Position numbers and translations under genes: made by a program. The notes beneath the pieces were generated by a model, which worked only from the letters and a program-made list of their open reading frames with translations, had not been told where the DNA came from and did no database searches. From Gracilibacillus orientalis (GTDB taxonomy: Bacteria > Bacillota > Bacilli > Bacillales > Amphibacillaceae): DNA of 64,000 bases. Shown in pieces: positions 6,957 to 52,003 of this stretch. Location: NCBI RefSeq assembly GCF_900114645.1, contig NZ_FOTR01000003.1, positions 310,001 through 374,000 of the forward strand. Direction: 5' to 3'. Position 1 is the first letter of the stretch; each line of letters begins with the position of its first letter.

Positions 6957-8129
6957 ATGAACACACAACGCTGGATGAGTATGCATTTTTTTAGTTTCTT
7001 TTTGACATGGGGCATTTTTCTACCTTATTGGTCAGGCTGGATGATTCATACAAAAGGAATTTCAGTCTCCGAAGCAAGTTTGATCATGAGCTTAGGACTG
7101 CTTGCAAGAGGACTTTCTACATTATTTGCGTTTCCGTATTTATCAGGGAAGATTAGCAGTAAAATGTTATTAAATATAATGGGGATCGGCACACTCGTTG
7201 CTATTGTCTGTTATATTCCAGTAAATTCCTTTACCGGTTTACTAATAGCAACAATTGCCTTACATCTATTTTATCCAACGCTGATGCCGGCATTAGATAG
7301 TGTTGCAGGTGTCCTTGTGCAAAGTAAACAATTAAAACATTATGGAAGAAGCAGGCAATGGGGATCGATTGGTTTTGTCTCTGTCGGTATGGTTTTAACC
7401 ATTTTTACAGGGATGCTTGGAGATGAAATCATTTTATGGGCACTACTACTTGGCGTAATCGGATTTGTGAGTCTTGGTTATATGCAAACACCAGTTATTT
7501 TATCTGAAAAGCCGCCAGTAGACCAAACACAAAAAGTAGGTATATTACACTTATTCCGTATCAAACACTTCAGTCTAGTACTCATTATTGTTATTTTATT
7601 GCAAGCAGCACATGCAACTTACTACAATTATGGCTATATTTTTTTACAAGAAATACAAGCACCAACCTATTTGATTGGTTTTATTATTAACATTGCTGTA
7701 ATTGCGGAAATTATATTCTTCTCCATTGCAGATAAAAAGTTTGATAAATTTTCGATTGGGTCGTTACTGACCATTGCAGCCATTGGTTCATCTCTTCGTT
7801 GGATACTAGTTTTCGCCTTTCCGAATGTGATTATTTTCTGTATAGCTCAAACATTGCATGCATTGTCGTTCGCTATGGCACATTATGCTTTTATGAAATA
7901 CTTAATCAAAAACATTCCACATCTACAGATACCAAAGGCACAAGGTGTATATTCTGCATTAGCACTTAGCTGGAGCACTGCTGTATTCACTATTTTGGGT
8001 GGCTATTTATACGAGATTGAGCCGAGATTATCGTTTATTGGAATGATTTTATGTACTATTCCTGCCATGTTGCTTGCGCTTATATATCGAAGGGTGGAAC
8101 ATGGAAAGGAAGTTTCGGTTTCTACTTAA
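6957..8129 (+). CDS. MFS transporter, 12 helices (MFS_1-like / HcaT-LacY group)
   Basis: 390 residues with about 12 hydrophobic helices. The N-terminus (MHFFSFFLTWGIFLPYWSGWM) and a central SRQWGSIGF segment resemble YwbF/HcaT-type proton symporters for small organic acids or nucleoside-like compounds. A GAGGGGG site lies about 8 bases before the ATG. It is divergent from the Crp-type regulator and shares its palindrome. Substrate unknown; import rather than export is usual for this subfamily. Confidence 0.85.
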   Translation: MNTQRWMSMHFFSFFLTWGIFLPYWSGWMIHTKGISVSEASLIMSLGLLARGLSTLFAFPYLSGKISSKMLLNIMGIGTLVAIVCYIPVNSFTGLLIATIALHLFYPTLMPALDSVAGVLVQSKQLKHYGRSRQWGSIGFVSVGMVLTIFTGMLGDEIILWALLLGVIGFVSLGYMQTPVILSEKPPVDQTQKVGILHLFRIKHFSLVLIIVILLQAAHATYYNYGYIFLQEIQAPTYLIGFIINIAVIAEIIFFSIADKKFDKFSIGSLLTIAAIGSSLRWILVFAFPNVIIFCIAQTLHALSFAMAHYAFMKYLIKNIPHLQIPKAQGVYSALALSWSTAVFTILGGYLYEIEPRLSFIGMILCTIPAMLLALIYRRVEHGKEVSVST

Positions 8130-37738: not shown

Positions 37739-38422
37739 ATGAAGATAAACATATTTGTTGTTGAAGATGATGATGCTTTGTTTGCTGCGTTGAAGAAAGG
37801 TCTAGAGGCTTGGTCGTTCCGGGTCACGAGACCAGATGATTTTGAAGGTGTGATGCGTTCATTTCTTGAACAACAGCCTCAGCTCGTCATCATGGATGTC
37901 ATACTCCCGAAATTTGACGGTTTTCATTGGTGTCGCGAGATTCGCGCTGTATCCAAAGTACCCATTGTTTTCCTTTCCTCCCGCGATCACCCATTGGATA
38001 TGGTCATGGCACTGAACATGGGGGCGGACGACTTCATCCAGAAGCCGTTTCATACAGACGTGCTTTATGCCAAAATTCAAGCCGTTCTCCGGAGGACATA
38101 TGCTTATGGCGAAGAGCAATCGAATATTCTTGAATGGAACGGCGCCTTGATTGATTTGAATCGAGGTGTAATTCGAAACGCTGGGAAAGAAGTGGATTTA
38201 ACAAAAAACGAATTTTTTATACTGATCACGCTCGTGAGATCGAACAATGTCATTATCTCGCGCCATGACTTGATACGAAAGCTGTGGGAGGACGAGCAGT
38301 TCGTGAACGACAATACCCTCACGGCGAATATAACCCGTTTGCGGCATAAGCTGGAGACGATCGATTTGGCAGACACTATTGTGACAAAAAAAGGGCTGGG
38401 TTATATGGCCATCACTTTATAG
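37739..38422 (+). CDS. OmpR-type response regulator, BceR-like
   Basis: 227 residues. The receiver domain has acidic residues EDDD near 10, phospho-acceptor Asp53 (IMDVILP), and Lys in the PFHTD-preceding QKPF. The C-terminal winged helix (VDLTKNEFFILITLVRSNNV, ending KKGLGYMAI) binds DNA. AGGAGG precedes the ATG. It is followed by the kinase, an ABC ATPase and a FtsX-type permease, the set used by Bacillaceae to sense and resist cell-wall peptide antibiotics. The likely target is the palindrome at 39551. Confidence 0.92.
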   Translation: MKINIFVVEDDDALFAALKKGLEAWSFRVTRPDDFEGVMRSFLEQQPQLVIMDVILPKFDGFHWCREIRAVSKVPIVFLSSRDHPLDMVMALNMGADDFIQKPFHTDVLYAKIQAVLRRTYAYGEEQSNILEWNGALIDLNRGVIRNAGKEVDLTKNEFFILITLVRSNNVIISRHDLIRKLWEDEQFVNDNTLTANITRLRHKLETIDLADTIVTKKGLGYMAITL

Positions 38423-38458
38423 AGATTATAAACATGTACTGATAGGAGGAACCGTGCC

Positions 38459-39493
38459 GTGTTTATCCGTTACGTTGATGCAAGGAAAAGTTGGATTTTA
38501 CTATTTGTCGGCTTACTCGGCTTAGCTAATGCTCTGATCCTGCTTGATCAAGGCATCCAGGTCACATCTACTTCTCTCTTTTATTTTAACGCCTCATTTA
38601 TTCTGTCCTTTCTCTTGTTTTTTATATGGCGCTTCAAGAGAGAAACAAAATATGCCACCGCGTTGGCTGCTCTGCAGGAAGACATGGCCTTAGATTGGAT
38701 CGAGACTCTTCCTGAGCCTGGGGACGGTCTAGATAAGATAACCAATGACATCTTACAGGAGGCCTCCCTTCAGTTCAAACGAAAGCTTTCTGACTATAAA
38801 GAAACTCAACTGATCGAGAATGAATTCACGGCCTCATGGATCCATGAGGTGAAGACTCCTCTCACCGCCATGAAGCTAATCCTGGACGCCCGGCCAAGTG
38901 ATCCAGAAATACGTAAAATTGAAGCGGAATGGTTGCGGGTGTATTTGTTGGTCGACCGTCAGCTGCATATGACACGTCTGCCCGCGATCGAATCAGACTA
39001 TGTTCTTGAATTGGCCTCCATACAGCGCCTTGCCGCGGAAGAAGTACGGGAGCTGGCGCCATGGTGTATGGAAAAAAATCTGGCGGTCAGTATCGAAGGA
39101 ACGGATGTAAAGGCCATTACAGACCGAAAATGGTGCCGCTTCATCCTTCGGCAATTGTTGACGAATGCCGTGAAATATAATCCTGCGAATACGGCACTTA
39201 TGATCGTGACGGATGTAACGGAGACAGGCCAAGTCTTTTTGGATGTCATCGATGAAGGACCGGGAATACAGCCGCACGAATTGCCGCGTATCTTTGACAA
39301 AGGCTTCACGGGCGAAAACGGCAGGATTCAAAATGCTGCGACCGGACTTGGGCTCTATCTTGCAAAAACCGTTGCAGATAAATTAGAAATTACCCTCAAA
39401 GCGCAACCCGGTCAAACGAAAGGTACGGTGATGCGAATGATTTTTGTCAATCCCAACGCATTCGAAGCTGTCCGAAGAGGGGCGGGCGAGTAA
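38459..39493 (+). CDS. Intramembrane-sensing histidine kinase, BceS-like
   Basis: 344 residues from GTG with AGGAGGA 8 bases upstream. Only two N-terminal helices (about 12-30 and 40-57) with a very short outside loop are present, the hallmark of kinases that sense through their partner ABC transporter. Phospho-acceptor His129 lies in SWIHEVKTPLTAMKL. The ATPase part has RQLLTNAVKYNP (N box), DEGPGI (G1) and TGLGLYLAK (G2). It phosphorylates the upstream regulator when the transporter engages its peptide. Confidence 0.93.
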   Translation: MFIRYVDARKSWILLFVGLLGLANALILLDQGIQVTSTSLFYFNASFILSFLLFFIWRFKRETKYATALAALQEDMALDWIETLPEPGDGLDKITNDILQEASLQFKRKLSDYKETQLIENEFTASWIHEVKTPLTAMKLILDARPSDPEIRKIEAEWLRVYLLVDRQLHMTRLPAIESDYVLELASIQRLAAEEVRELAPWCMEKNLAVSIEGTDVKAITDRKWCRFILRQLLTNAVKYNPANTALMIVTDVTETGQVFLDVIDEGPGIQPHELPRIFDKGFTGENGRIQNAATGLGLYLAKTVADKLEITLKAQPGQTKGTVMRMIFVNPNAFEAVRRGAGE

Positions 39494-39550
39494 TATCCAG
39501 CTATGAAGCAGTCAGGATTGCTCCTGGCTGTTTTTGGTGTGGAATAGTGA

Positions 39551-39627
39551 ACGTGACAATATTGTCACGTTGTCTTGCCAGATTGTCATGCAAAACGTAC
39601 GACAAGCGGAAAATCCAACCGTATAAT
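39551..39627 (+). promoter_or_regulatory. Response-regulator operator and promoter of the ABC genes
   Basis: A perfect 20-bp palindrome ACGTGACAAT/ATTGTCACGT (39551-39570) and a further GATTGTCATG half site lie upstream of a -10 TATAAT (39622-39627) with no good -35. This layout suits an activator-dependent BceR-type promoter in front of bceAB-like genes. Confidence 0.8.
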
Positions 39628-39668
39628 AAAGCTATTATCAAGCAACAATTATGATTTGGAGGTACGTT

Positions 39669-40454
39669 ATGGATCAGTTGAATGTAGGAGAAACCGTTTT
39701 ACAAGCACGAAATGTCCACAAAACATTTGGTACCAAAGGAAATGCACAGCATGTATTAAAAGGAATAGATTTACGCGTAACCCGCAGTGAATTTGTCGGC
39801 ATTATGGGCCCTTCCGGCTCAGGCAAGACGACATTGCTTAACGTCTTAGCCACGATTGATCATACTACGGACGGAACGGTTTTAATCGACGACGCAGATA
39901 TATCCAAGCTGAGTAATACCGCGCTTTCCGCCTTTCGGCGCAACAAGCTGGGATTCATCTTCCAGGATTACAATCTACTGGACACGTTGACAGTGAAGGA
40001 AAATATACTGCTGCCCATCTCCCTTAGCAAAATGAGCAAGCGGAAAGCGGAAAGCGAGTTCACAGCCATCGCCGATGTGTTTGACATTAAAGCACTGTCG
40101 CACAAATATCCGCATGAAATATCAGGAGGCCAGAAACAACGGACAGCTGCCGGGCGCGCTCTGATCCACCAGCCTTCGATCGTGTTTGCGGACGAACCGA
40201 CCGGTGCACTGGATTCCAAATCCGCTTCCTCGTTACTGGACGTGATGGAGAAGGTGAATCAGCAGCGAGGCGTCACCGTTGTCATGGTGACACATGATCC
40301 GGTAGCCTCCAGCTATTGCAGCCGTGTTGTGTTTTTAAGAGACGGGAAGATTTATTCCGAGCTGTACCGCGGCGATAAAACAAGACATGCCTTCTTTAAT
40401 GAAATTATGGACGTGCAAGCTGTACTGGGGGGTGACCATGTTGACGGTTTTTGA
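39669..40454 (+). CDS. ABC transporter ATP-binding protein, BceA-like
   Basis: 261 residues. Walker A is GPSGSGKTT, the signature is ISGGQKQRTAAGRAL, and Walker B is VFADEPTGALD. It belongs to the MacB/BceA group that powers FtsX-type permeases. ATG at 39669 is used because GGAGG stands 6 bases upstream. Its stop overlaps the permease start by 17 bases, so translation is coupled. It should drive removal or target protection against peptide antibiotics such as bacitracin-like compounds. Confidence 0.94.
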   Translation: MDQLNVGETVLQARNVHKTFGTKGNAQHVLKGIDLRVTRSEFVGIMGPSGSGKTTLLNVLATIDHTTDGTVLIDDADISKLSNTALSAFRRNKLGFIFQDYNLLDTLTVKENILLPISLSKMSKRKAESEFTAIADVFDIKALSHKYPHEISGGQKQRTAAGRALIHQPSIVFADEPTGALDSKSASSLLDVMEKVNQQRGVTVVMVTHDPVASSYCSRVVFLRDGKIYSELYRGDKTRHAFFNEIMDVQAVLGGDHVDGF

Positions 40455-42366
40455 ATTAGCGCTTCGCAGCATGCGGCAAAATGTGAAGCATTATTATTTG
40501 TACTTCTTTGCGCTGATCTTTAGTATGAGCCTATATTTTGTCTTCACCTCACTACAGCACGATCAGGCTGTTCTGAATATGACACATCCGAGCGTTGACT
40601 TCACTGCCGGGTTTCAAATTGCGGGAGTCATGCTGATTGTGATCGTTGGGATCTTTACCGTCTCGGCCAACGGCATTTTCCTGCGTCGGCGCAGTCGAGA
40701 AATCGGACTATACCAGCTGGTTGGTCTTTCCAAAGGCTGGGTAGCCCGATATCTAATGATCGAGAATATACTGCTTGGCTTAGGTGCACTACTTGCTGCG
40801 ATCATTTGCGGCGCGTTGATTTCAAGGCTGTTCGTCCTGATTTTGTTGAATCTGCTCGGCTTAGAAGGGATTGTCGGCATCAGCTTCTCCGTACCAGCGG
40901 CTTTTAAAACGTCGATGGTCTATCTTCTCATCATCGTCATCACTTCCATTCAGATGATGCTGAAGGTTTATCGCAGCACCCTTCTGAATCTGTTTCAAGC
41001 TGACAAGCAGCCTGACCTCACTAAGCCGCCCAAAGCGGTGGCATCTGCTATTTTCGCCCTGCTCGGTCTGGCGCTGATTGGATACGGCTATGAATTATCG
41101 GGTCATATCAATGAACAGTTATTCCTCAACGCACCATTGGTACTCGGATCCATCGTTGCAGGGACTTACTTATTGTTTCGCGTTACGATCAGACGGTGCT
41201 TTTACCGGTTCCGCAAACGTAAAGATGGACACCTAGGCTTAACAAACAGCCTGTCGATGGCTCCGCTGATGCACCATACGAAAGCAAATGCCAACTCACT
41301 TACCTTGATTACGGTGTTGTCGGCCATGGCCATCACGCTGATTTCCATGGCTTACTCCTTCTACTACTCCGTAGAGCAAGAGACCCGCCACGATTTCCCT
41401 GATGATTTTATGTTTGAAAACGAGCCGCAGGAGGCGCTGTCGTTCAAGATGGAGCTGGAGAAGGAAGGCATCGATGTTAATCACCACGTCGTTCAAGCGG
41501 TTCTGACGATGGGCATCATCCTTGATCCGAATGACGAATCCCGTAAGGTTGAAGAAAGTTTGTTATGGCTTCCGGCCGAACAGCTTAAACAAACAGGCGC
41601 AGACCTCAACGTGCCGCCAGATGGCGAAGCCATTTTGTACAATGCTGGGGCCTCACTTGCCGGGGACTTAGATGAGCAGTCGAAGCGATATCCAACCGAA
41701 ATAGTGCTGGAGCAGCATGGACAGACTGTTATGTATACATTGAGGACAGTGATGGAAAGGAACATCATGAATTTAAATGCTCCCGGCAGTCAGCTGCTAG
41801 TGTCAGAAGCGACGATGGACAAAATCGCAGTACAAATGGCCGATACGCCCGGTTATAAAATAATTCGCTTTGATACGTTTCAAGTTCCGGACAAGGAAGA
41901 GCTCGCCATAGCTTCCTCTCTATACGCAAAATCCGTCAGTGACGAACTATTATATTATTTCTATGCGCAGTACAAAGAAGTGCTGCAGACGACAGGCTTG
42001 CTCATTTTCATCGCAGCTTTCCTTGGACTTGTCTTTTTGATCTCAACCGGCAGCATCTTGTACTTCAAGCAAATGACCGAAGCCGAGCAGGAAAAGCAAA
42101 GCTTTAAGACGTTGCGTCAGCTCGGATTTGACGTGGATATGATCATGAAAGGCATTATACGAAAGCAGGCCATCGTGTTCCTTCTCCCTCTATCGATCGG
42201 TATGCTGCATTCGATCTTTGCTATCAAGGCGGCTTCATTTATGATCCGGTCGGATACCATGTTTCCGGCATCCATCGTCATGGCGATTTACACGGTTATC
42301 TATTTTGTATTCGCTCTGTTTACCATAGGCTACTACCGCAACATTGTAAAAAACGCTATGTCATAA
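40438..42366 (+). CDS. FtsX-domain ABC permease, BceB-like
   Basis: 642 residues. Predicted topology is ten helices with a large extracellular loop (about residues 310-510) between helices 7 and 8, as in BceB-type peptide sensors and exporters. FtsX domains are visible as VTANGIFLRRRSREIGLYQL VGLSK-like text near 80-105 and KQSFKTLRQLGFDVDM near 560. ATG at 40438 follows GGGGTGA. It partners the ATPase and signals to the BceS-like kinase. The block 37.7-42.4 kb is visibly GC-richer than its flanks. Confidence 0.93.
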   Translation: MLTVFELALRSMRQNVKHYYLYFFALIFSMSLYFVFTSLQHDQAVLNMTHPSVDFTAGFQIAGVMLIVIVGIFTVSANGIFLRRRSREIGLYQLVGLSKGWVARYLMIENILLGLGALLAAIICGALISRLFVLILLNLLGLEGIVGISFSVPAAFKTSMVYLLIIVITSIQMMLKVYRSTLLNLFQADKQPDLTKPPKAVASAIFALLGLALIGYGYELSGHINEQLFLNAPLVLGSIVAGTYLLFRVTIRRCFYRFRKRKDGHLGLTNSLSMAPLMHHTKANANSLTLITVLSAMAITLISMAYSFYYSVEQETRHDFPDDFMFENEPQEALSFKMELEKEGIDVNHHVVQAVLTMGIILDPNDESRKVEESLLWLPAEQLKQTGADLNVPPDGEAILYNAGASLAGDLDEQSKRYPTEIVLEQHGQTVMYTLRTVMERNIMNLNAPGSQLLVSEATMDKIAVQMADTPGYKIIRFDTFQVPDKEELAIASSLYAKSVSDELLYYFYAQYKEVLQTTGLLIFIAAFLGLVFLISTGSILYFKQMTEAEQEKQSFKTLRQLGFDVDMIMKGIIRKQAIVFLLPLSIGMLHSIFAIKAASFMIRSDTMFPASIVMAIYTVIYFVFALFTIGYYRNIVKNAMS

Positions 42367-43190: not shown

Positions 43191-43403
43191 TCAATGAGAG
43201 TTTAATAACTGTTTCTTAAGGAACACTTCACACGTTTTTAAACACCAACACCTTGTATCATTAATCACTAGATCAGGCTCAGGAATAATCCCTCTTTTGA
43301 TGTACATGCTTAATTTTCCAGCAGAACAATTCAATCCATTTTCATTTAAAAAAGAGACAAAACGGCTTTGATTGAAGTATTGAAGCAAAAAAGTCCGAAC
43401 CAT
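43191..43403 (-). CDS. Small HTH-like protein or fragment
   Basis: 70 residues. KLSMYIKRGIIPEPDLVIND followed by TRCW resembles the compact 'YxxRGxIPxPD...RxW' pattern of AlpA/MerR-like DNA-binding proteins. The nominal ATG (43403) lies inside the terminator hairpin of the oxidase gene, so the true start is probably lost and this is likely a remnant of a mobile-element regulator. Confidence 0.4.
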   Translation of the reverse strand: MVRTFLLQYFNQSRFVSFLNENGLNCSAGKLSMYIKRGIIPEPDLVINDTRCWCLKTCEVFLKKQLLNSH

Positions 43404-43436
43404 GATTCAAAAAATTGAATCAGTTCGGACTTTTTT
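43387..43436 (-). terminator. Terminator of the met transport/oxidase operon
   Basis: AAAAAAGTCCGAAC and GTTCGGACTTTTTT pair, enclosing a second stem TGATTCAA/TTGAATCA: a long, nearly perfect hairpin with T-tail 45 bases after the oxidase stop. Confidence 0.92.
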
Positions 43437-43480
43437 CACACGTTAAGAAGTATAAAATTTTTTATCAAACCCGACCATAT

Positions 43481-44596
43481 TCATGTTCCTTCGGGTGTTG
43501 ACATACGTCTGATAAACGTATGATCTACTTGATTTACATCATTAATACCCATTAGTTGCAACGTTTTGGTAAGGTCATTCGTGATATTTTCTAGTACGTT
43601 TTCCACTCCTGACTGCCCAGAAATGGCCAATCCATATACAAAAGGTCTCCCTAAAAGAACAGCATCTGCTCCTAATGCTAATGCCGTAACAATGTCTGGG
43701 CCTGAGCGTATACCGCTATCCAACAGAATCGTTAGTTGATCTTGAACTCTAGCTTTGATTAAAGGTAAAGCATCGATCGAAGCAATACAACGATCTAATT
43801 GACGTCCACCATGATTGGAAACGACAATTCCATCAATACCTAATTCCACTGCCTTCTCCGTATCATCTGGATGCAGTACACCCTTAATATAAATAGGAAG
43901 GGACGTTGCCTTGCGCAGTTGTTGTATATGTTGCCAATTTAAATCTGGCTTAAAAAATACTTTTTGCATTTCTGCCAGCACATCTTCTTGTGAATAACCT
44001 CTTAGATATGATTGAAAAATAGGATCATTTGTATAATTACTCATGCCTTTACCTAAACGAAAGGGAGAATATTTATTTGTTAAGTCTTTTTCACGATGTC
44101 CCAGTGTTGCCATGTCAATAGTTACCACAATCGCTTTATACCCAGCTTTTTCAGCACGTTGAACAAAGCTTTTAGCAAGTGCCTCATCATTAGGATAGTA
44201 TAACTGAAACCACCGCTCTGCGTCAGGACATGCTTCGGCTATGTCTTCGAGCGAATAGGACGATACCGTACTTGCCATAAATGGCATTCCAAACTTGTGG
44301 GCAGCACTTACACTTGCCTTTTCACCATTTACATTAGCTAAAGCTTGCATGCCGACTGGAGCTAATAAAATAGGTGATTGGATCGTTTCACCGTGAATCT
44401 TTTTATCTAAAGAAACAGTAGAAACATCTGCTCCAAATCGTGGGACTAATTGCCACTTTTCAAAAGACGTTTCATTCGTTCGTAACGTTTCTTCTCTACC
44501 GCCACCACTTTGAATATAGCCAAAAACCTTTGGTTCCAGTCGATCTTGGGCTTGCTGTTCTAAATCTTGAAACCTTATAGGAAATGATGCTGTCAT
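43481..44596 (-). CDS. FMN-dependent alpha-hydroxy-acid oxidase
   Basis: 371 residues of TIM barrel. FMN and substrate residues are visible: LLAPVGMQALAN near 77-88, Lys238 (YIKGV), catalytic His262 in SNHGGRQLD, and LDSGIRSGPDIV then LGADAVLLGRPF. The family oxidises L-2-hydroxy acids such as lactate to 2-oxo acids. It starts 10 bases after metI and ends at the operon terminator, so it is cotranscribed with the S-box-controlled methionine transporter. A methionine-related hydroxy acid is therefore an attractive substrate. That is inference; lactate oxidase-type activity is the conservative call. Confidence 0.9.
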   Translation of the reverse strand: MTASFPIRFQDLEQQAQDRLEPKVFGYIQSGGGREETLRTNETSFEKWQLVPRFGADVSTVSLDKKIHGETIQSPILLAPVGMQALANVNGEKASVSAAHKFGMPFMASTVSSYSLEDIAEACPDAERWFQLYYPNDEALAKSFVQRAEKAGYKAIVVTIDMATLGHREKDLTNKYSPFRLGKGMSNYTNDPIFQSYLRGYSQEDVLAEMQKVFFKPDLNWQHIQQLRKATSLPIYIKGVLHPDDTEKAVELGIDGIVVSNHGGRQLDRCIASIDALPLIKARVQDQLTILLDSGIRSGPDIVTALALGADAVLLGRPFVYGLAISGQSGVENVLENITNDLTKTLQLMGINDVNQVDHTFIRRMSTPEGT

Positions 44597-44606
44597 AAAT
44601 TTCTCC

Positions 44607-45281
44607 TTAATCTTTCTTCAATCTAGCTGATACACGGTTACCGAATGTTTGTACACCTTGTACCAAAATAATTAAGATAATGACCGTTACATACATGATA
44701 TCAGTCTGATAGCGTAAATGACCATATCGATAAGCTAAATCACCAAGACCACCAGCACCGACTAAGCCTGCCATTGCTGTTGCACCTATAAGACCAATTG
44801 TCGCAATCGTTAAACCTAATATAATCGATGAGCGTGCTTCTCCAATCAGAACATGCCAAATAATATGGCGTGTTTTAATCCCCATTGCTTCATAAGCTTC
44901 AATCACACCGCGATCAACCTCTAATAAACTCGACTCCATGAGACGAGCTATATAAGGTGCAGTAAACACAACTAATGGCACAATTACACCTCGGACACCA
45001 ATTGTTGTACCAGCTACTAGGTCCGTGAACGGTAATATAAAGAATAATAGAATAATAAATGGAATGGAACGCAATATATTGATGACCGTATTTAAAATTT
45101 GATAAATAATCTTATTTTCAAGTGCTTTACCTGGCCCTGTTAATGTTAACAACACACCTAACGGTAGACCAATAAGAATCGCAAGTGTTAACGAAACACC
45201 TACCATGATCATCGTATCAATAAAAGACATCCAAATTTCGGCTCCCCAGTTGTCCATAAAATCCGTAATACTAGTTACCAT
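44607..45281 (-). CDS. metI: Methionine ABC transporter permease
   Basis: 224 residues with five or six helices. The ATPase-contact motif reads EAYEAMGIKTRHIIWHVLIG. The fold matches MetI of the D-methionine MUT family (IYQILNTVINILRSIPFIIL). ATG at 45281 is taken because AAGGAGG stands about 9 bases upstream. It overlaps the metN stop by 11 bases. It forms the membrane channel of MetNIQ. Confidence 0.94.
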   Translation of the reverse strand: MVTSITDFMDNWGAEIWMSFIDTMIMVGVSLTLAILIGLPLGVLLTLTGPGKALENKIIYQILNTVINILRSIPFIILLFFILPFTDLVAGTTIGVRGVIVPLVVFTAPYIARLMESSLLEVDRGVIEAYEAMGIKTRHIIWHVLIGEARSSIILGLTIATIGLIGATAMAGLVGAGGLGDLAYRYGHLRYQTDIMYVTVIILIILVQGVQTFGNRVSARLKKD

Positions 45282-46305
45282 GGGTTGGATCCTCCTTTGT
45301 GTATGCCTCAACGATTACGCCACTTTCCTCTAAATAATGGATCGCCTTTTGTGCTTCACTCTCACTTCCGTCTAAGTGAACGATTAAACGTCCAAATGGT
45401 CGCTCTTTTAAATCGGTAATATTTCCACCTAATATAGACGGGAATACATCATATTTTTTCGTAACCATCGCAAGTGCCGGATCACCAGCAGATTCACCAA
45501 TAAACGATAAAGAAACTAGCTTGCCATTGGTTTTTAATTTCCTGAAAAGGTCACCTGGAATATCATCATTAAATAACGAATGAATAAAACGTTTAGCTGT
45601 TTCGGTTTGCGGTTTAGAGAAGACATCAATCACAGATCCTTGCTCAATCACTTCACCTTGTTCCATCACAGCTACTTCATGACAAATCTTCTGTACAACA
45701 TTCATTTCATGTGTAATCAATAAAATCGTGATACCTAATTCTTTATTAATTTTGCTCAATAGTTCTAAAATAGCTTCCGTCGTATCTGGGTCAAGTGCAC
45801 TTGTTGCTTCATCACACAATAATACTTTTGGTTCATGAGCTAATGCACGTGCAATCGCCACGCGTTGTTTTTGCCCCCCAGATAGTTGGGCAGGATAAAC
45901 CTTTAATTTATCCTGCAAACCGACTATTTGAATGTATTGTGCTACACGTTTGTCAATCTCCGCTTTTGGTACGCCAGTTAACTTTAAAGGCAAGGCAATA
46001 TTATCATAGACTGTACCTGTTTTAAGAAGATTAAATGATTGAAAAATCATTCCCATTTGTTGTCTTACATCATTTAATTGGCTGCCGCTTAACTTGATCA
46101 AATCTTTTCCTTCAAATAGAACTTGGCCAGAAGTTGGCTTTTCTAATAAATTAGCCATTCTAACTAAAGTACTCTTGCCAGCTCCACTATACCCTATTAC
46201 ACCGAAAATGGATCCTTCTTTCACTTGTAATGAAACGTCATGAAGGGCTTTTACTTCTCTTTTCTTATCTTGAAAAACTTTCGTTAGGTTTTTAAATTCT
46301 ATCAT
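45271..46305 (-). CDS. metN: Methionine ABC transporter ATP-binding protein
   Basis: 344 residues. Walker A is GYSGAGKST, signature LSGGQKQRVAIARAL, Walker B VLLCDEATSALD. After about residue 265 comes the NIL domain (GKLVSLSFIGESAGDPALAM, then ERPFGRLIVHLDG), which senses internal methionine and inhibits transport in this family. It is 18 bases downstream of metQ and overlaps metI. It powers methionine uptake. Confidence 0.95.
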   Translation of the reverse strand: MIEFKNLTKVFQDKKREVKALHDVSLQVKEGSIFGVIGYSGAGKSTLVRMANLLEKPTSGQVLFEGKDLIKLSGSQLNDVRQQMGMIFQSFNLLKTGTVYDNIALPLKLTGVPKAEIDKRVAQYIQIVGLQDKLKVYPAQLSGGQKQRVAIARALAHEPKVLLCDEATSALDPDTTEAILELLSKINKELGITILLITHEMNVVQKICHEVAVMEQGEVIEQGSVIDVFSKPQTETAKRFIHSLFNDDIPGDLFRKLKTNGKLVSLSFIGESAGDPALAMVTKKYDVFPSILGGNITDLKERPFGRLIVHLDGSESEAQKAIHYLEESGVIVEAYTKEDPTHGN

Positions 46306-46323
46306 GCTGCATATGCCCCTCTC

Positions 46324-47121
46324 TTACCAAGAAGTAATAACTGAATCTGCAAAATTCTCCTCGATAAATTGTTTTACCTCCTCAGAACGGTAAATATCAA
46401 TCAATTGTTGAATATTTTCATCTTCTACATTCTCTTCTCTTGTCGCTAGAACGTTTACCCATGGAGACTCTTTTGGTTCCATGTGAAGCGAATCTTCTGT
46501 CGGAACTCGGCCACTTTCAAGTGCATAGTTTGTATTAATCGCTGCAATTTGTACTTCTCCTAATTGTCTAGGTATTTGAGATGCTTCTAGTAGTACAAAT
46601 TCTAAGTTTAATGGGTTTTCTTGTATGTCTTTAACCGTTACATCTACTCCAGCATCTTCTGGTAATGTAATTAAACCAGCTTCCTCAAATAACATTAATG
46701 CACGAGGCTCACCTGAAGAGTGGTTTGGCAACCCAACCTTGTCACCTTCTTGCAACTCATCCAAGCTAGAATATTGATCAGAATAAATCCCCATTGGGAA
46801 GTTTACCGTATCTGCTACTTTAACTAAATCTAATTCACCTTCATCACGAGCATTGTTCATAAACGGTTCATGTTGAAAAATGTTCGCATCTAATTCACCT
46901 TCATCTAATGCTGTGTTAGGCATTACATAATCGTTAAACACATGAACCTCAATGTCTAATCCTTCTTCTGCTGCTAATTCTTTTACATGATTCACAATAT
47001 CCTCATGTGGTCCTGCAGTCACACCGACATCTAATTTTCCATTACTATCCGCATTGTTATTTCCACAAGCTGCTAAAATAAGAATGATTGCTACACTAAT
47101 TAATCCAACAAGTTTCTTCAT
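46324..47121 (-). CDS. metQ: Methionine-binding lipoprotein
   Basis: 265 residues. The signal peptide ends with lipobox LILAAC (Cys20). The NLPA-type binding fold is plain (DVGVTAGPHEDIVNHVKELA, NIFQHEPFMN, VGLPNHSSGEPRALMLFEEA). It captures methionine, often also the D-isomer and sulfoxides, outside the cell for MetNI. Transcription starts about 220 bases upstream and passes the S-box riboswitch. Confidence 0.95.
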   Translation of the reverse strand: MKKLVGLISVAIILILAACGNNNADSNGKLDVGVTAGPHEDIVNHVKELAAEEGLDIEVHVFNDYVMPNTALDEGELDANIFQHEPFMNNARDEGELDLVKVADTVNFPMGIYSDQYSSLDELQEGDKVGLPNHSSGEPRALMLFEEAGLITLPEDAGVDVTVKDIQENPLNLEFVLLEASQIPRQLGEVQIAAINTNYALESGRVPTEDSLHMEPKESPWVNVLATREENVEDENIQQLIDIYRSEEVKQFIEENFADSVITSW

Positions 47122-47157
47122 GTTGTTATCCCCCTACTATTCTATTATAAAATACCA

Positions 47158-47326
47158 TTAAAAAAATCCCTATCTTCACCGAGAGATAGAGAATTCTACT
47201 TTAATCAATAGTTCTTCTCTTATCTCCCAAACAGCTAAACTGTTTGCTGGAATTAGCACCTTTCTATAAAAAAATAGATGGTTGCCGGGTTTCGCAGGGC
47301 CAGTCCCTCCACCACTCTCGATAAGC
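47158..47326 (-). promoter_or_regulatory. S-box (SAM-I) riboswitch with terminator
   Basis: On the minus strand: CTTATCGAGAGTGGTGGAGG, then GACTGGCCC, GAAACCCGGCAACC, GGTGCTAATTCC, and closing GGGAGATAAG (aptamer 47219-47325). Downstream, a stem CTATCT/AGATAG with T7 (47158-47190) is the terminator. High SAM should stop transcription of metQ-metN-metI-oxidase. Confidence 0.96.
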
Positions 47327-47350
47327 ATGATTTAATTTTTTATGATAATA

Positions 47351-47379
47351 AGTATAGCGTAAACAAGAACTTAAGTCAA
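47351..47379 (-). promoter_or_regulatory. Sigma-A promoter of the S-box operon
   Basis: TTGACT, 17-base spacer, TATACT on the minus strand, placing the start about 20 bases before the aptamer. Confidence 0.9.
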
Positions 47380-47404
47380 TCATTAACAGAAAATTCAGTT
47401 TAAA

Positions 47405-47433
47405 TTGACACTTATTCATTCAGGTGGCATACT
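47405..47433 (+). promoter_or_regulatory. Likely promoter of the dehydrogenase-aminotransferase operon
   Basis: TTGACA (47405-47410), 17-base spacer, CATACT. It is divergent from the S-box promoter; no riboswitch is seen on this side. Confidence 0.6.
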
Positions 47434-47465
47434 TTTTACCATATAAAAATCATCGAGGTGAACAT

Positions 47466-48548
47466 ATGGATACTTTACATATCAAAGGAGCCCCTAACTA
47501 TTATCAATGCCGAAACGGTCTATTAAACGATCTATTTGATTTGTTACAAGAACACGACTTCAACCAACTACTTGTTATTCATGGGGATCAATCATGGGAA
47601 AAAGTAAAAACTTACTTTACTGACCCTGCACTACCTTGCCAATTTGTTGCCTATCAAGGACAATGTTCACATAATGAAGTAAAACGCATTGCTGAGTTAA
47701 CTCAAGCAGAGACAACTGCTGTGATCGGTATAGGTGGTGGAAAAATATTAGACATTGCCAAAGCATGTGGGGATCAATTAAAATTACCAACTATTTTAGC
47801 ACCTACATTAGCATCTAATTGCGCACCATGGACACCATTATCCGTTTTTTATGATCAACAAGGGAATTTTCAAGAATATATTATCTTCAATCAAAGTACT
47901 TATATGTTATTAGTAGATCCTGAGGTGATTTTGGATGCACCAAGAGCCTATTTCCGTGCTGGAATTGGTGATACGATTGCTAAGTGGTATGAAGCGGATG
48001 TCTTAACACGTGAGCTACCGCAGAAACCTGTTTCATTAGATATCGCACTACATGCAGCAAGACTATGTCGAGACGTGCTTATCGAAGAAGGAGAAGAAGC
48101 ATTGGCAGCCATTGATAACCAATCATATAGCCATTCCTTTTTGCGCTCGGTTGAAACGATCATCATGACTGGTGGAATGGTAGGTGGCTTTGGTGATCAT
48201 TATGGTCGTGTATCTGGTGCTCACTCGATTCATAACGGACTAACACACCTTGCTGAAACGCATGATACATTGCATGGAGACAAAGTAGCTTATGGTGTCT
48301 TGGTTCAATTAGCGATTGAAAAAAGGCTAGATGAAGTCGAAAAGCTATTACCTTTCTATAAACGCATGCAACTACCAACTAGTTTACACGATATAGGCGT
48401 AGAGGATATCACAGAGGAAAAAGTGGACTTATTAAGCAAAGGTGCTACGAAACCGAAAGAATCTATCCATTTTATGAATGTATCTGATCCTAAAGTTGTT
48501 CGAGACGCTGTATTTCAGTTGGAAGCATTCATTCTTGATATAAAATAA
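47466..48548 (+). CDS. Metal-dependent alcohol/hydroxy-acid dehydrogenase (glycerol dehydrogenase-like)
   Basis: 360 residues from the ATG at 47466 (GAGGTGA upstream). The NAD motif GIGGGKILDIAK is at about 79-90. Metal ligands are expected at Asp of AGIGDTIAKWYE and His of SGAHSIHNGLTHL and ETHDTLHGDKVAYG, all present. This is the iron-containing ADH superfamily, closest in feel to glycerol dehydrogenases. It lies 35 bases before an MtnE-like aminotransferase and is divergent from the methionine operon. A role in oxidising a 2-hydroxy acid (for example the D-form) to a 2-oxo acid is an inference from that context. Confidence 0.87.
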   Translation: MDTLHIKGAPNYYQCRNGLLNDLFDLLQEHDFNQLLVIHGDQSWEKVKTYFTDPALPCQFVAYQGQCSHNEVKRIAELTQAETTAVIGIGGGKILDIAKACGDQLKLPTILAPTLASNCAPWTPLSVFYDQQGNFQEYIIFNQSTYMLLVDPEVILDAPRAYFRAGIGDTIAKWYEADVLTRELPQKPVSLDIALHAARLCRDVLIEEGEEALAAIDNQSYSHSFLRSVETIIMTGGMVGGFGDHYGRVSGAHSIHNGLTHLAETHDTLHGDKVAYGVLVQLAIEKRLDEVEKLLPFYKRMQLPTSLHDIGVEDITEEKVDLLSKGATKPKESIHFMNVSDPKVVRDAVFQLEAFILDIK

Positions 48549-48583
48549 GATTTACTAATAGAAATCTAGATGGAGATGAAGAT

Positions 48584-49756
48584 ATGCTAGAATTCGAATA
48601 TTCGAATACATTAAAAAGATTACCAGAACAATTTTTTGCGAAGTTAGTAAAAACAACACAAGCTCTGAAAAAGGAAGGTCATGATGTTATAAATCTTGGC
48701 CAGGGAAATCCCGATTTACCAACACCAAACTTTATTGTGGAAGCATTACAAGAGGCAAGTCAACATGAAGCCTTTCATAAATACTCTCCGTTTCAAGGCT
48801 ATCCTTTTTTAAAAGAAGCTGTGGCTAACTTCTATAAAAGTGAGTATGAGGTAGACGTTGATCCAAAGACAGAAGTTGCAATTTTGTTCGGATCAAAAAC
48901 AGGGCTAGTTGAGATTAGTCAATGCCTATTAAACCCTCAAGAAAAGGTGCTAGTCCCTGACCCTGGCTATCCGGATTATATGTCAGGTATTGCACTAGCA
49001 GATGCTGAACCTATACATATGCCATTAAAAAAGGAAAATCAATTTTTGCCTGATTATCAGAATATTTCTGATGAAGACTTAGCAGAAGCAAAATTAATGT
49101 TTTTAAATTACCCAAACAACCCAACCGCTGCTACTGCAACTAAAGATTTCTTTGACCAAACTATTGAAGTGGCACAAGAAAACCATATTTGTGTCGTTCA
49201 TGATTTTGCTTATGGAGCAATTGGATTTGAAAATGAAAAACCTCAAAGCTTCTTGCAATCAGAAGGAGCAAAAGACGTTGGTATCGAGATGTATACATTA
49301 TCCAAATCATTTAATATGGCTGGATGGCGAGTAGCATTTGCTGTCGGGAATCCATCTGTTATTAAAGCACTCGAATTAATTCAAGACCACTATTATGTCA
49401 GTATTTTTGGTGCTATTCAATCCGCTGCGAAAACTGCGCTTGATCAAGGTCATGACGCGATAGTTGAATTAAACAATACCTATCAGGAAAGAAGAGATGC
49501 CTTCCTACAACAAGCAGAGAAAATCGGTTGGCATGGTGGTACTGCGAATGGTTCTTTCTTTGTCTGGATGCCAACTCCAACAGGATATACCTCAGAATCA
49601 TTTGCCAATCTTCTATTAGAGAAAGCACATGTAGTTGTTGCTCCTGGCAATGGGTTTGGAACATCAGGTGAAGGATATGTCCGCATTGGCTTATTAGATG
49701 AACCTGAGCGCTTGCGTGAAGCATGCGATCGGATTGAGAAGCTATCCTTATTTTAA
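48584..49756 (+). CDS. mtnE: PLP-dependent aminotransferase, MtnE (YkrV)-like
   Basis: 390 residues, class I fold. The PLP lysine is in YTLSKSFNMAGWR (about 239), with partner residues in NYPNNPTAA and HDFAYG. Sequence tracks Bacillus subtilis MtnE, which turns 2-oxo-4-methylthiobutyrate into methionine. Phrases such as LPEQFFAKLV, DVINLGQGNPDLPTP and HKYSPFQGYPFLKEA are characteristic. It follows the dehydrogenase gene in one operon and ends at a terminator. No other methionine-salvage genes (mtnK, mtnA, mtnW) are in the window. Confidence 0.9.
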   Translation: MLEFEYSNTLKRLPEQFFAKLVKTTQALKKEGHDVINLGQGNPDLPTPNFIVEALQEASQHEAFHKYSPFQGYPFLKEAVANFYKSEYEVDVDPKTEVAILFGSKTGLVEISQCLLNPQEKVLVPDPGYPDYMSGIALADAEPIHMPLKKENQFLPDYQNISDEDLAEAKLMFLNYPNNPTAATATKDFFDQTIEVAQENHICVVHDFAYGAIGFENEKPQSFLQSEGAKDVGIEMYTLSKSFNMAGWRVAFAVGNPSVIKALELIQDHYYVSIFGAIQSAAKTALDQGHDAIVELNNTYQERRDAFLQQAEKIGWHGGTANGSFFVWMPTPTGYTSESFANLLLEKAHVVVAPGNGFGTSGEGYVRIGLLDEPERLREACDRIEKLSLF

Positions 49757-50343: not shown

Positions 50344-51852
50344 TTACTCATTAAATACTGTAATCCTTCCGTCAATGGTCTCATGAATTACCTCTGATTT
50401 TTCAGCATACTCAATCAACACTTCCGCATCTGTTCGAGCATTTGTCTCATCAACAACTAACATACTTTGACTAAACATAGTAAACCCGTCTCCACCATTA
50501 AATAGATAATTGGGCATTGCTACTGTATAGTCTTTTTGTAAGTCAAGCGGTTCCTTATTTACCAAAATATTATCTACTCTTGATCCTTCTGGGTTATTTC
50601 GTTGATAGGAGTATTTCAAACCTGAAACTTGTAAGAAACCACCGCCAAGATTTTCTACGTTAGATACGCCGTTTTCTAAAGCAGCTCGAATAGTATCTCC
50701 TGGAACAGTAGCCAGGATCACTTTATTCCGAAACGGCAGGATTGAATAGGCATCACGCAATGTGAACTCACCTGCTGGTACACTCGTACGAATACCGCCA
50801 CCGTTCATAAAGCCAATATCCGCATTAAAATAAGAACGATAACTATCAGCAACGAAATTACCAATATTCGTTTCTTGATATCTTGACTCTTGGTTAATGA
50901 GTGGTGTTTCTAATTGGGCAATGGATTGTCCTAAATCCCCCTCCAACTTGTCCTCGTAGTAATCTGCAAACTCCTTTAATTCTGGATCCTCCGGCACGGT
51001 GTGATCGACTTCTATGATTTCTGGAATCAATTGAATATCCTTACCTTTTTTATGAATATCCAATCGAATCATCGAACCTATATTACCTGCTGGAGCAAAA
51101 ATATAACGATTATCATATTCATACACAAAAGATTGGTATTCCGCCTTTTCTTCTGTAAAAACGGCATCAATTTCAGGAACAGCTGATAATAATTGTTTGT
51201 CTTTCGCTAAGTTTTCCTGTGTTAAAGCAATAATAACATCCACTTTTTTTGTTTCCTTCATTTGTGCAACTGCATTTTGGGCTGACTGAATGATATCCTG
51301 CTGTTCAACTTGATCATCAGCTGTTGTCGTATTCATGTTATCCGTAAGTCCAATGACTCCCATTTTAATGCCACGTTCATTAAAAATTTTATAGGTTGAA
51401 ACACCGGCAAAAGGGCTTCCTTCTGCATCTGTTAAATTAGAAGAAATCCAAGGAAAATCTGATTCCTCAACTAACTCTTTTGTAACATGAGAACCGAAGT
51501 CAAAATCATGCTGTCCAAAATTAGCAAGATCAATATCAATTCGATTAAAAGCTTCTACAACGGGAAATCCTTGATATACTCCACCGAATAGTGTTCCTCC
51601 TCCTAAGTCACCACCAAAGGCTACAAGTGTATGCTTATTCTCCTCCCGAACATGGTCAATAGCTGTTTTAAGCTTCGCCACTCCACCTCGATCCCCGTCC
51701 TCGTTTTCGTTTACAACCGGGCCCACTTCATGAGCATCATTAAAATACAGAATGGTCGCTTTTCTAGAGCTATTCTTTGCTTCAACATCATCTGTCAAAA
51801 AGGCACTTACAGTTAAAACAAATAATAACAGCACTATCAAAAGTCTTTTCAT
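50344..51852 (-). CDS. Secreted 5'-nucleotidase / UshA-type metallophosphatase
   Basis: 502 residues from ATG at 51852 (GAGGGGAGA upstream). Signal peptide MKRLLIVLLLFVLTVSAFL is cut near VEA. N-terminal metallophosphatase motifs: FNDAHE (D-x-H), GGDLGG, and GQHDFDFG in place of the usual GNHEFD. The C-terminal substrate domain has MNGGGIRTSVPAG and NYLFNGGDGF. It releases phosphate and nucleosides from nucleotides outside the cell. No wall-anchor motif is seen. It stands alone. Confidence 0.9.
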   Translation of the reverse strand: MKRLLIVLLLFVLTVSAFLTDDVEAKNSSRKATILYFNDAHEVGPVVNENEDGDRGGVAKLKTAIDHVREENKHTLVAFGGDLGGGTLFGGVYQGFPVVEAFNRIDIDLANFGQHDFDFGSHVTKELVEESDFPWISSNLTDAEGSPFAGVSTYKIFNERGIKMGVIGLTDNMNTTTADDQVEQQDIIQSAQNAVAQMKETKKVDVIIALTQENLAKDKQLLSAVPEIDAVFTEEKAEYQSFVYEYDNRYIFAPAGNIGSMIRLDIHKKGKDIQLIPEIIEVDHTVPEDPELKEFADYYEDKLEGDLGQSIAQLETPLINQESRYQETNIGNFVADSYRSYFNADIGFMNGGGIRTSVPAGEFTLRDAYSILPFRNKVILATVPGDTIRAALENGVSNVENLGGGFLQVSGLKYSYQRNNPEGSRVDNILVNKEPLDLQKDYTVAMPNYLFNGGDGFTMFSQSMLVVDETNARTDAEVLIEYAEKSEVIHETIDGRITVFNE

Positions 51853-52003
51853 AAATATAAATCTCCCCTCTCTATCATTTCTCAATAAAAATTCTAGCAA
51901 ATGAATGTTAAATAATAGTAAGATTCTTGTGAATTTTCGTCATACTAAAGAATCAAATTTCTTTTAAATACTCGATTATTCACAGGGGTTGAAGGCGTTT
52001 TCG

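Follow-up and report, generated by a model that had tools for sequence, protein, structure and literature searches.

Within a 64,000-nucleotide stretch of the Gracilibacillus orientalis genome (the window; positions 310001-374000 of contig C13 in a 4.61 Mb assembly of 29 contigs), an S-adenosylmethionine (SAM) riboswitch of the S-box family leads into an operon that carries the methionine importer genes metQ, metN and metI, followed by a gene for a 2-hydroxy-acid oxidase dependent on flavin mononucleotide (FMN). Divergently from this operon lie genes for a dehydrogenase (DH) and an MtnE-type aminotransferase. We believe, with a probability of about 0.68, that these genes together form a methionine-hydroxy-acid salvage unit. 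A sequence-only reading of the window had proposed that the compound salvaged is 2-hydroxy-4-methylthiobutyrate (HMTB), and comparative genomics favours this idea because the same gene set recurs behind S-boxes in relatives. Surveyed genomes are labelled G (G. orientalis is G000) and surveyed locus stretches L.

The unit in Gracilibacillus orientalis

The features of the unit, in order of position, are as follows.

43384-43441 (-): intrinsic terminator, hairpin plus T-run, at the end of the S-box operon; -27.5 kcal/mol
43481-44596 (-): FMN-dependent 2-hydroxy-acid oxidase; PF01070 (FMN_dh), 405 bits
44607-45281 (-): metI, permease; PF00528; its start codon, ATG 45281, overlaps the metN 3' end
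45271-46305 (-): metN, ATPase with NIL domain; PF00005 and PF09383
46324-47121 (-): metQ, substrate-binding lipoprotein; PF03180, 274 bits
47167-47192 (-): terminator-like hairpin and T-run between S-box and metQ; consensus match only
47217-47327 (-): SAM riboswitch (S-box) aptamer; Rfam RF00162, 90 bits (gathering score 44.4), E 4.1e-20
47351-47379 (-): promoter-like site before the S-box, TTGACT-17-TATACT; consensus match only
47405-47433 (+): promoter-like site facing DH, TTGACA-17-CATACT with TG before; consensus match only
47466-48548 (+): DH, iron-containing alcohol dehydrogenase family protein, YbdH-like; PF00465
48584-49756 (+): MtnE-type aminotransferase; NF005977, 645 bits

On the minus strand the S-box is thus followed by metQ, metN, metI and the oxidase gene, with a terminator after the last, and on the plus strand DH precedes the aminotransferase gene by 35 bases. 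This layout, down to its coordinates, is the one that had been read from the sequence alone. The listed open reading frame of DH opens at GTG 47424, and ATG 47466 was taken as the start. A NIL-domain ATPase, a MetI-like permease and an NlpA-type lipoprotein encoded in a single operon constitute the architecture of a MetNIQ importer; the best NCBIfam models for metQ (MetQ/NlpA family), metN (TIGR02314) and metI (NF008049) all score below their cut-offs.

The proposal that the oxidase belongs to the S-box transcript agrees with the 10-base spacing between metI and the oxidase gene, with the position of the one strong terminator beyond the oxidase gene, and with a relative (L280) whose S-box stands directly before the oxidase, so that cotranscription appears probable. 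The terminator has a z score of -7.57, and 0 of 200 shuffled sequences folded as low. Promoter consensus matches in the region (26, against a shuffle mean of 23.7) and terminator consensus matches (4, against 4.5) are not commoner than by shuffling. The block 43501-49756 aligns as a single unit, at 84% DNA identity, to congeneric genome G035, and a comparison of window positions 35001-60000 with a 16 kb stretch of G035 gave no match beyond this block.

Recurrence of the gene set in other genomes

The strongest argument for a common function comes from how often, and in how many arrangements, these genes are found together. Among 159 genomes of the family, the oxidase is present in 63 and DH in 54 (both at E 1e-60). 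We examined 80 family stretches, of which 64 surround oxidase genes other than that of the window and 16 were added for DH or mtnE, and called an oxidase linked if it lay on the same strand as, and no more than 2.5 kb from, metN or metI. By this definition, half of the family oxidases (32 of 64) are linked, and a covariance model built from the 13 S-boxes of G000 itself finds 47 S-boxes in the 80 stretches. In the order, the oxidase finds a match at 1e-95 in 90 of 397 genomes, and from the matches 40 places outside the family were taken, namely the 20 best and 20 lower ones picked by hand (hence not a random sample). Eighteen of them are linked and L280 adds an S-box directly before the oxidase, although these 19 methionine-context oxidases in 40 should not be read as a frequency.

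Taken together, 52 of 105 oxidases stand in a methionine context (50 linked to metN or metI, L280 and the window), and they span 23 genera in 8 families. All 52 operons are led by an S-box, as against none for the 53 others; three of the unlinked stretches (L129, L141 and L282) do contain an S-box elsewhere, none of them leading into the oxidase. The corresponding Fisher value of 6e-31 assumes that related genomes are independent, and S-boxes are in any case frequent at metNI operons. Because of this kinship and these usual S-boxes, we place the weight on recurrence in different gene orders. The survey for S-box operons containing this oxidase, which the sequence-only reading had called for, therefore yields a recurrent operon of the same genes.

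The commonest order is S-box-metQ-metN-metI-oxidase. Other loci have S-box-metQNI-oxidase-DH (five loci), S-box-DH-metQNI-oxidase (five, among them L269 with a 1.6 kb gap before metN), S-box-metN-metI-oxidase-metQ (three) or S-box-metN-metI-oxidase-DH-metQ (one). L294 places mtnE, DH, metQNI, the oxidase and a second aminotransferase, in this order, all behind one S-box, and L280 pairs its S-box-oxidase unit with a divergent S-box-DH-metQ-metN operon. If the genes serve one pathway, their order would be expected to vary while the set stays the same, as is seen here.

Of 41 DH loci, 25 have the DH gene behind an S-box, and in 15 of these DH is the first recognised gene (in L148 after a 640-base gap), while mtnE occurs in the same stretch in 27 of the 41; fourteen of the DH loci were chosen for their DH, so the set is not a random sample. 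Close to DH, at most 300 bases away, a carbon-nitrogen hydrolase gene is present in 20 of the 41 loci; four more loci have such a gene no farther than 450 bases from mtnE (24 of 41). All four of the hydrolases that were examined with hidden Markov models (HMMs) belong to PF00795, with the best model, NF007757, which we take to be E. coli YafV, scoring below its cut-off. An omega-amidase-like enzyme of this kind is the expected partner of a glutamine-dependent MtnE; none was recognised in the window unit. In six loci (L086-L089, L101 and L122) metQ adjoins the oxidase or DH gene, with a second metQ copy in L089, L101 and L122, and the adjoining metQ may encode a binding protein for the hydroxy acid.

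Linkage is strongly clustered on the oxidase trees. In a tree of 65 rows the linkage label changes 4 times, against about 22 changes when shuffled, and in a quick tree of 104 rows, from which the fragment L147 was left out, it changes 5 times against 34.9, with at least 2 changes forced by well-supported branches. Farther afield, a tblastn search (1e-20) with the window's six proteins found, among the best 80 of 596 named relatives, none with metI, metQ, DH or mtnE and seven with a metN-like match (30-42% identity) besides the oxidase; this set may omit records near G000.

Proposed function and competing explanations

The aminotransferase passes the NCBIfam transaminase model NF005977 (645 bits against a cut-off of 494), and its best PDB match is 6l1l (422 bits), presumably B. 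subtilis MtnE. We infer that it converts 2-oxo-4-methylthiobutyrate (KMTB) to methionine. The usual explanation for such an enzyme would be salvage of methylthioadenosine (MTA). However, a search of G000 for mtnK and ARD/mtnD gave no match at E 0.001 (mtnA, mtnB, mtnW, mtnX and other MTA routes were not searched), and we reject ordinary MTA salvage as the reason for MtnE in this genome. KMTB must accordingly have another source. None of the 13 S-boxes of G000 precedes a recognisable mtn cluster in the stretches read, where genes were mostly judged by eye.

Across the family, MtnE-type aminotransferases are common (118 of 159 genomes at E 1e-100) and mtnK scores above its cut-off in only 18, namely one of the 33 genomes with a linked oxidase (G110) and 17 of the 126 others. 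ARD/mtnD matches at E 0.001 in 17 of the 159, one of which passes the cut-off, barely (27.5 against 27 bits). For comparison, 5 of 14 control genomes match ARD/mtnD, B. subtilis among them, with 2 passing the cut-off, and the controls that match mtnK, E. coli and B. subtilis, are both above it. A separate locus of the same genus (L163, G028) carries an mtnE 84% identical to that of the window with no metQNI, oxidase or DH beside it; a relative of the gene at window positions 50344-51900 stands some 2 kb away from this mtnE, and the unit is thus patchy within the genus.

The nearest solved relatives of the oxidase are human hydroxyacid oxidase 1 (HAO1; 276 bits, its best eukaryotic match) and lactate 2-monooxygenase (268), with single-copy lactate oxidase chains behind them at about 210 bits; the top PDB rows, 7f22 and 7f20, outscore the others because the oxidase matches each twice. 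Models for L-lactate oxidase and dehydrogenase match, every one below its cut-off (265.5 against 645.5 bits for the L-lactate oxidase model TIGR02708). Residues Y133, D161, R168, K238, H262 and R265 are invariant in 17 aligned rows. The window oxidase has Y27, Y133, R168, K238, H262 and R265, which we take to be the catalytic Tyr, Tyr, Arg, Lys, His and Arg; every one of the 52 linked rows has the last five, and 45 have Y27. A clade of six linked oxidases (L118, L119, L124, L127, L131 and L134) carries His where the first active-site Tyr would stand, and L101 carries Phe there.

The DH protein gives its best NCBIfam score with NF007880 (309 bits against a cut-off of 429), a model that we assume to represent E. 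coli YbdH/HcxA. Its PDB matches are glycerol dehydrogenases, and it has one Asp and two His at the aligned positions that we presume to hold the metal in those enzymes. DH is thus a YbdH-like protein and a putative hydroxy-acid dehydrogenase.

These assignments suggest the following route. At low SAM, the S-box, acting as its riboswitch family would predict, would let transcription proceed into metQ-metN-metI-oxidase. The MetQNI importer would bring in methionine and presumably also HMTB. The FMN oxidase would then turn L-HMTB and O2 into KMTB and H2O2, the YbdH-like DH would oxidise the other form of HMTB, probably the D-form, with NAD(P), and MtnE would aminate KMTB to L-methionine.

Several observations weigh against this proposal. 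The sequence-only reading had spoken of a possible salvage unit under S-box control, and such control extends to the transporter-oxidase arm but not to the DH-mtnE pair of the window, even though DH is under an S-box in many relatives: an Rfam scan found no S-box on the DH side of the window, and the promoter-like site there ends about 30 bases before ATG 47466, which leaves no room for a riboswitch. Within the genus, only 3 of 17 genomes (G000, G034 and G035) have a linked oxidase, and no single origin of linked oxidases was found in either the 65-row or the 104-row tree. E. coli HcxA/YbdH is reportedly an NADPH-dependent 2-oxo-acid reductase with no reverse reaction, which speaks against easy oxidation by DH. 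We also considered a specificity residue. At the place that we assign to Ala95 of lactate oxidase (LOX), using the alignment and an assumed six-residue offset, 104 of 105 oxidases have Gly and one has a gap; A95G is said, in the title of a 1996 Yorita paper, to turn lactate oxidase into a long-chain hydroxy-acid oxidase. Because linked and unlinked rows share this Gly, it was rejected as a mark of the linked enzymes, and it appears to bear on the pocket size of the whole subfamily rather than on the methionine linkage. In uropathogenic E. coli, ybdH and ybdL are strongly induced in urine along with methionine genes, and their mutants show no significant urine fitness defect, unlike met mutants (PMC5404293, in excerpt). 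Finally, some linked operons carry further genes. Enoyl-CoA hydratase and CoA-transferase III genes accompany the oxidase in 10 of the 51 linked operons outside the window (L089, L093-L095, L098, L101, L102 and L275-L277; within 170 bases in nine), with both families checked by HMM in L095 and the transferase also in L101. In three of the 51 (L091, L119 and L127) the linked oxidase has a 2-oxopent-4-enoate-hydratase-like gene no more than 130 bases away. Simple salvage has no need of these genes, whose products could process 3-methylthiopropionate or another by-product, and it is mainly for this reason that we retain the following alternative.

In this alternative, which we regard as unlikely but the best of those considered, the unit serves the breakdown of the methylthio chain. 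The oxidase, perhaps resembling lactate 2-monooxygenase, or its H2O2 would make 3-methylthiopropionate from the hydroxy acid, and the CoA-transferase and crotonase would release methanethiol to be re-used in methionine synthesis. The association of the two genes with linked oxidases is in keeping with such a route, as both occur in only 2 of the 53 unlinked loci (L284 and L290), where the matches are weaker and at least 1.2 kb away, and so is the rank of lactate 2-monooxygenase among the closest relatives of solved structure; Gly at the LOX-Ala95 place presumably fits that enzyme as well. However, the window unit and 41 of the 51 linked loci lack the two genes, DH, MtnE and the amidase are more frequent partners, and an acyl-CoA dehydrogenase, which the route would be expected to include, was not recognised in the operons, no search having been aimed at one.

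Slightly less probable still is a keto-acid buffer, in which DH reduces KMTB or 2-oxobutyrate to the hydroxy acid and the oxidase returns it. This would suit what we take to be the reported direction of E. coli HcxA, and the pairing of DH with MtnE in both enterics and the window, but cotranscription with an importer behind an S-box argues for gaining methionine in scarcity and not for discarding keto acids. That an ordinary L-lactate or glycolate oxidase shares the operon by chance is very improbable, because, despite the sub-threshold matches to the lactate enzyme models and the half of examined relatives that sit elsewhere, the gene recurs by metNI across 23 genera and in varying arrangements, and has Gly, not Ala, at the LOX-Ala95 place (a Gly shared by its unlinked relatives).

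Other S-boxes of G000 deserve mention beside the unit. A second S-box operon, metN-metI-metQ (L166), has no oxidase within the 8 kb read. Another S-box precedes a second FMN_dh-fold protein (L165:1956-2873), which we considered as a partner oxidase and set aside; the catalytic Lys and the His-Gly-Gly-Arg stretch were not seen in it, and it is probably not an oxidase. Proteins of this type occur in 11 of the 159 family genomes at E 1e-70, all of the same genus, and all 11 loci (L253-L263) have an S-box. Tandem S-boxes at 7693 and 7889 of L168 stand in unusual company, before thiolase, acetoacetate-CoA-ligase, thiolase-like and sodium-symporter genes, and an S-box at 6639 of L167 precedes genes for a short-chain dehydrogenase and a Na+/H+-antiporter-family transporter. 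Elsewhere in the window, by eye, genes for a response regulator, a sensor kinase, an ABC ATPase and a large permease follow in series at 37739-42366 (+), a module that we would liken to bacitracin-type sensing and export.

Significance and comparison with known systems

If the salvage proposal is correct, it would supply a physiological substrate for two enzyme groups whose nearest models are lactate oxidase or dehydrogenase and glycerol dehydrogenase, explain the persistence of MtnE in G000 without MTA salvage, and add a duty to the S-box regulon. Methionine hydroxy analogue is used as a feed additive. The same compound, 4-methylthio-2-hydroxybutyrate, is the natural substrate of DsyB in the synthesis of dimethylsulfoniopropionate (DMSP; PMC10989797, in excerpt), and bacteria that salvage HMTB would thus be of both nutritional and marine-sulfur interest. 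The sequence-only reading had known of no described operon with this exact set of genes, and likewise we found no description of it in the open-licence literature among the matches listed.

The conversion of DL-2-hydroxy-4-(methylthio)butanoic acid (HMTBA) in animals differs from the window in being peroxisomal and mitochondrial, with no operon, riboswitch or dedicated importer, and the animal D-2-hydroxy-acid dehydrogenase belongs to another family than DH. What it shares with the window, as far as the excerpted source goes, is the use of an L-2-hydroxy-acid oxidase for L-HMTBA and a second dehydrogenase, there a D-2-hydroxy-acid dehydrogenase, for the D-form, followed by transamination (PMC10136669).

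A further likeness is offered by E. coli ybdH-ybdL (hcxA-mtnE), which, like the window, combines a YbdH-type dehydrogenase with MtnE under control by methionine status. According to the excerpted text of PMC3228920, the loss of the salvage cluster in enterics left ybdH and mtnE in place under metboxes common to both; in E. coli the two genes were brought together after that loss. Unlike the window, the pair answers to the MetJ repressor rather than to an S-box, the function of ybdH is given as unknown, and no metNIQ or FMN oxidase is described with the pair in that excerpt. According to a review, methionine and its hydroxy analogue support the growth of an E. coli methionine auxotroph alike (PMC3274233), and an enteric ybdH-mtnE pair acting as a counterpart of the window unit would account for such growth.

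The MTA salvage genes of B. subtilis are under S-box control, and the pathway makes KMTB out of MTA by way of mtnK, A, W, X, B and D. In this source of KMTB the pathway is unlike the window, as G000 is without a match to mtnK or mtnD. The final step is alike, in that B. subtilis salvage ends in KMTB amination by a glutamine transaminase whose partner, an omega-amidase, makes the glutamine-driven amination irreversible (PMC6302742, in excerpt). Finally, S-box metNIQ transporter operons have the same riboswitch-led importer as the window, to which the window adds the FMN oxidase, and we judge that the unit extends these known S-box methionine operons. Whether Bacillales hold a dedicated, riboswitch-governed means to capture both HMTB enantiomers, with enteric ybdH-mtnE as its MetJ-governed counterpart, is a broader proposition to which we would give even odds.

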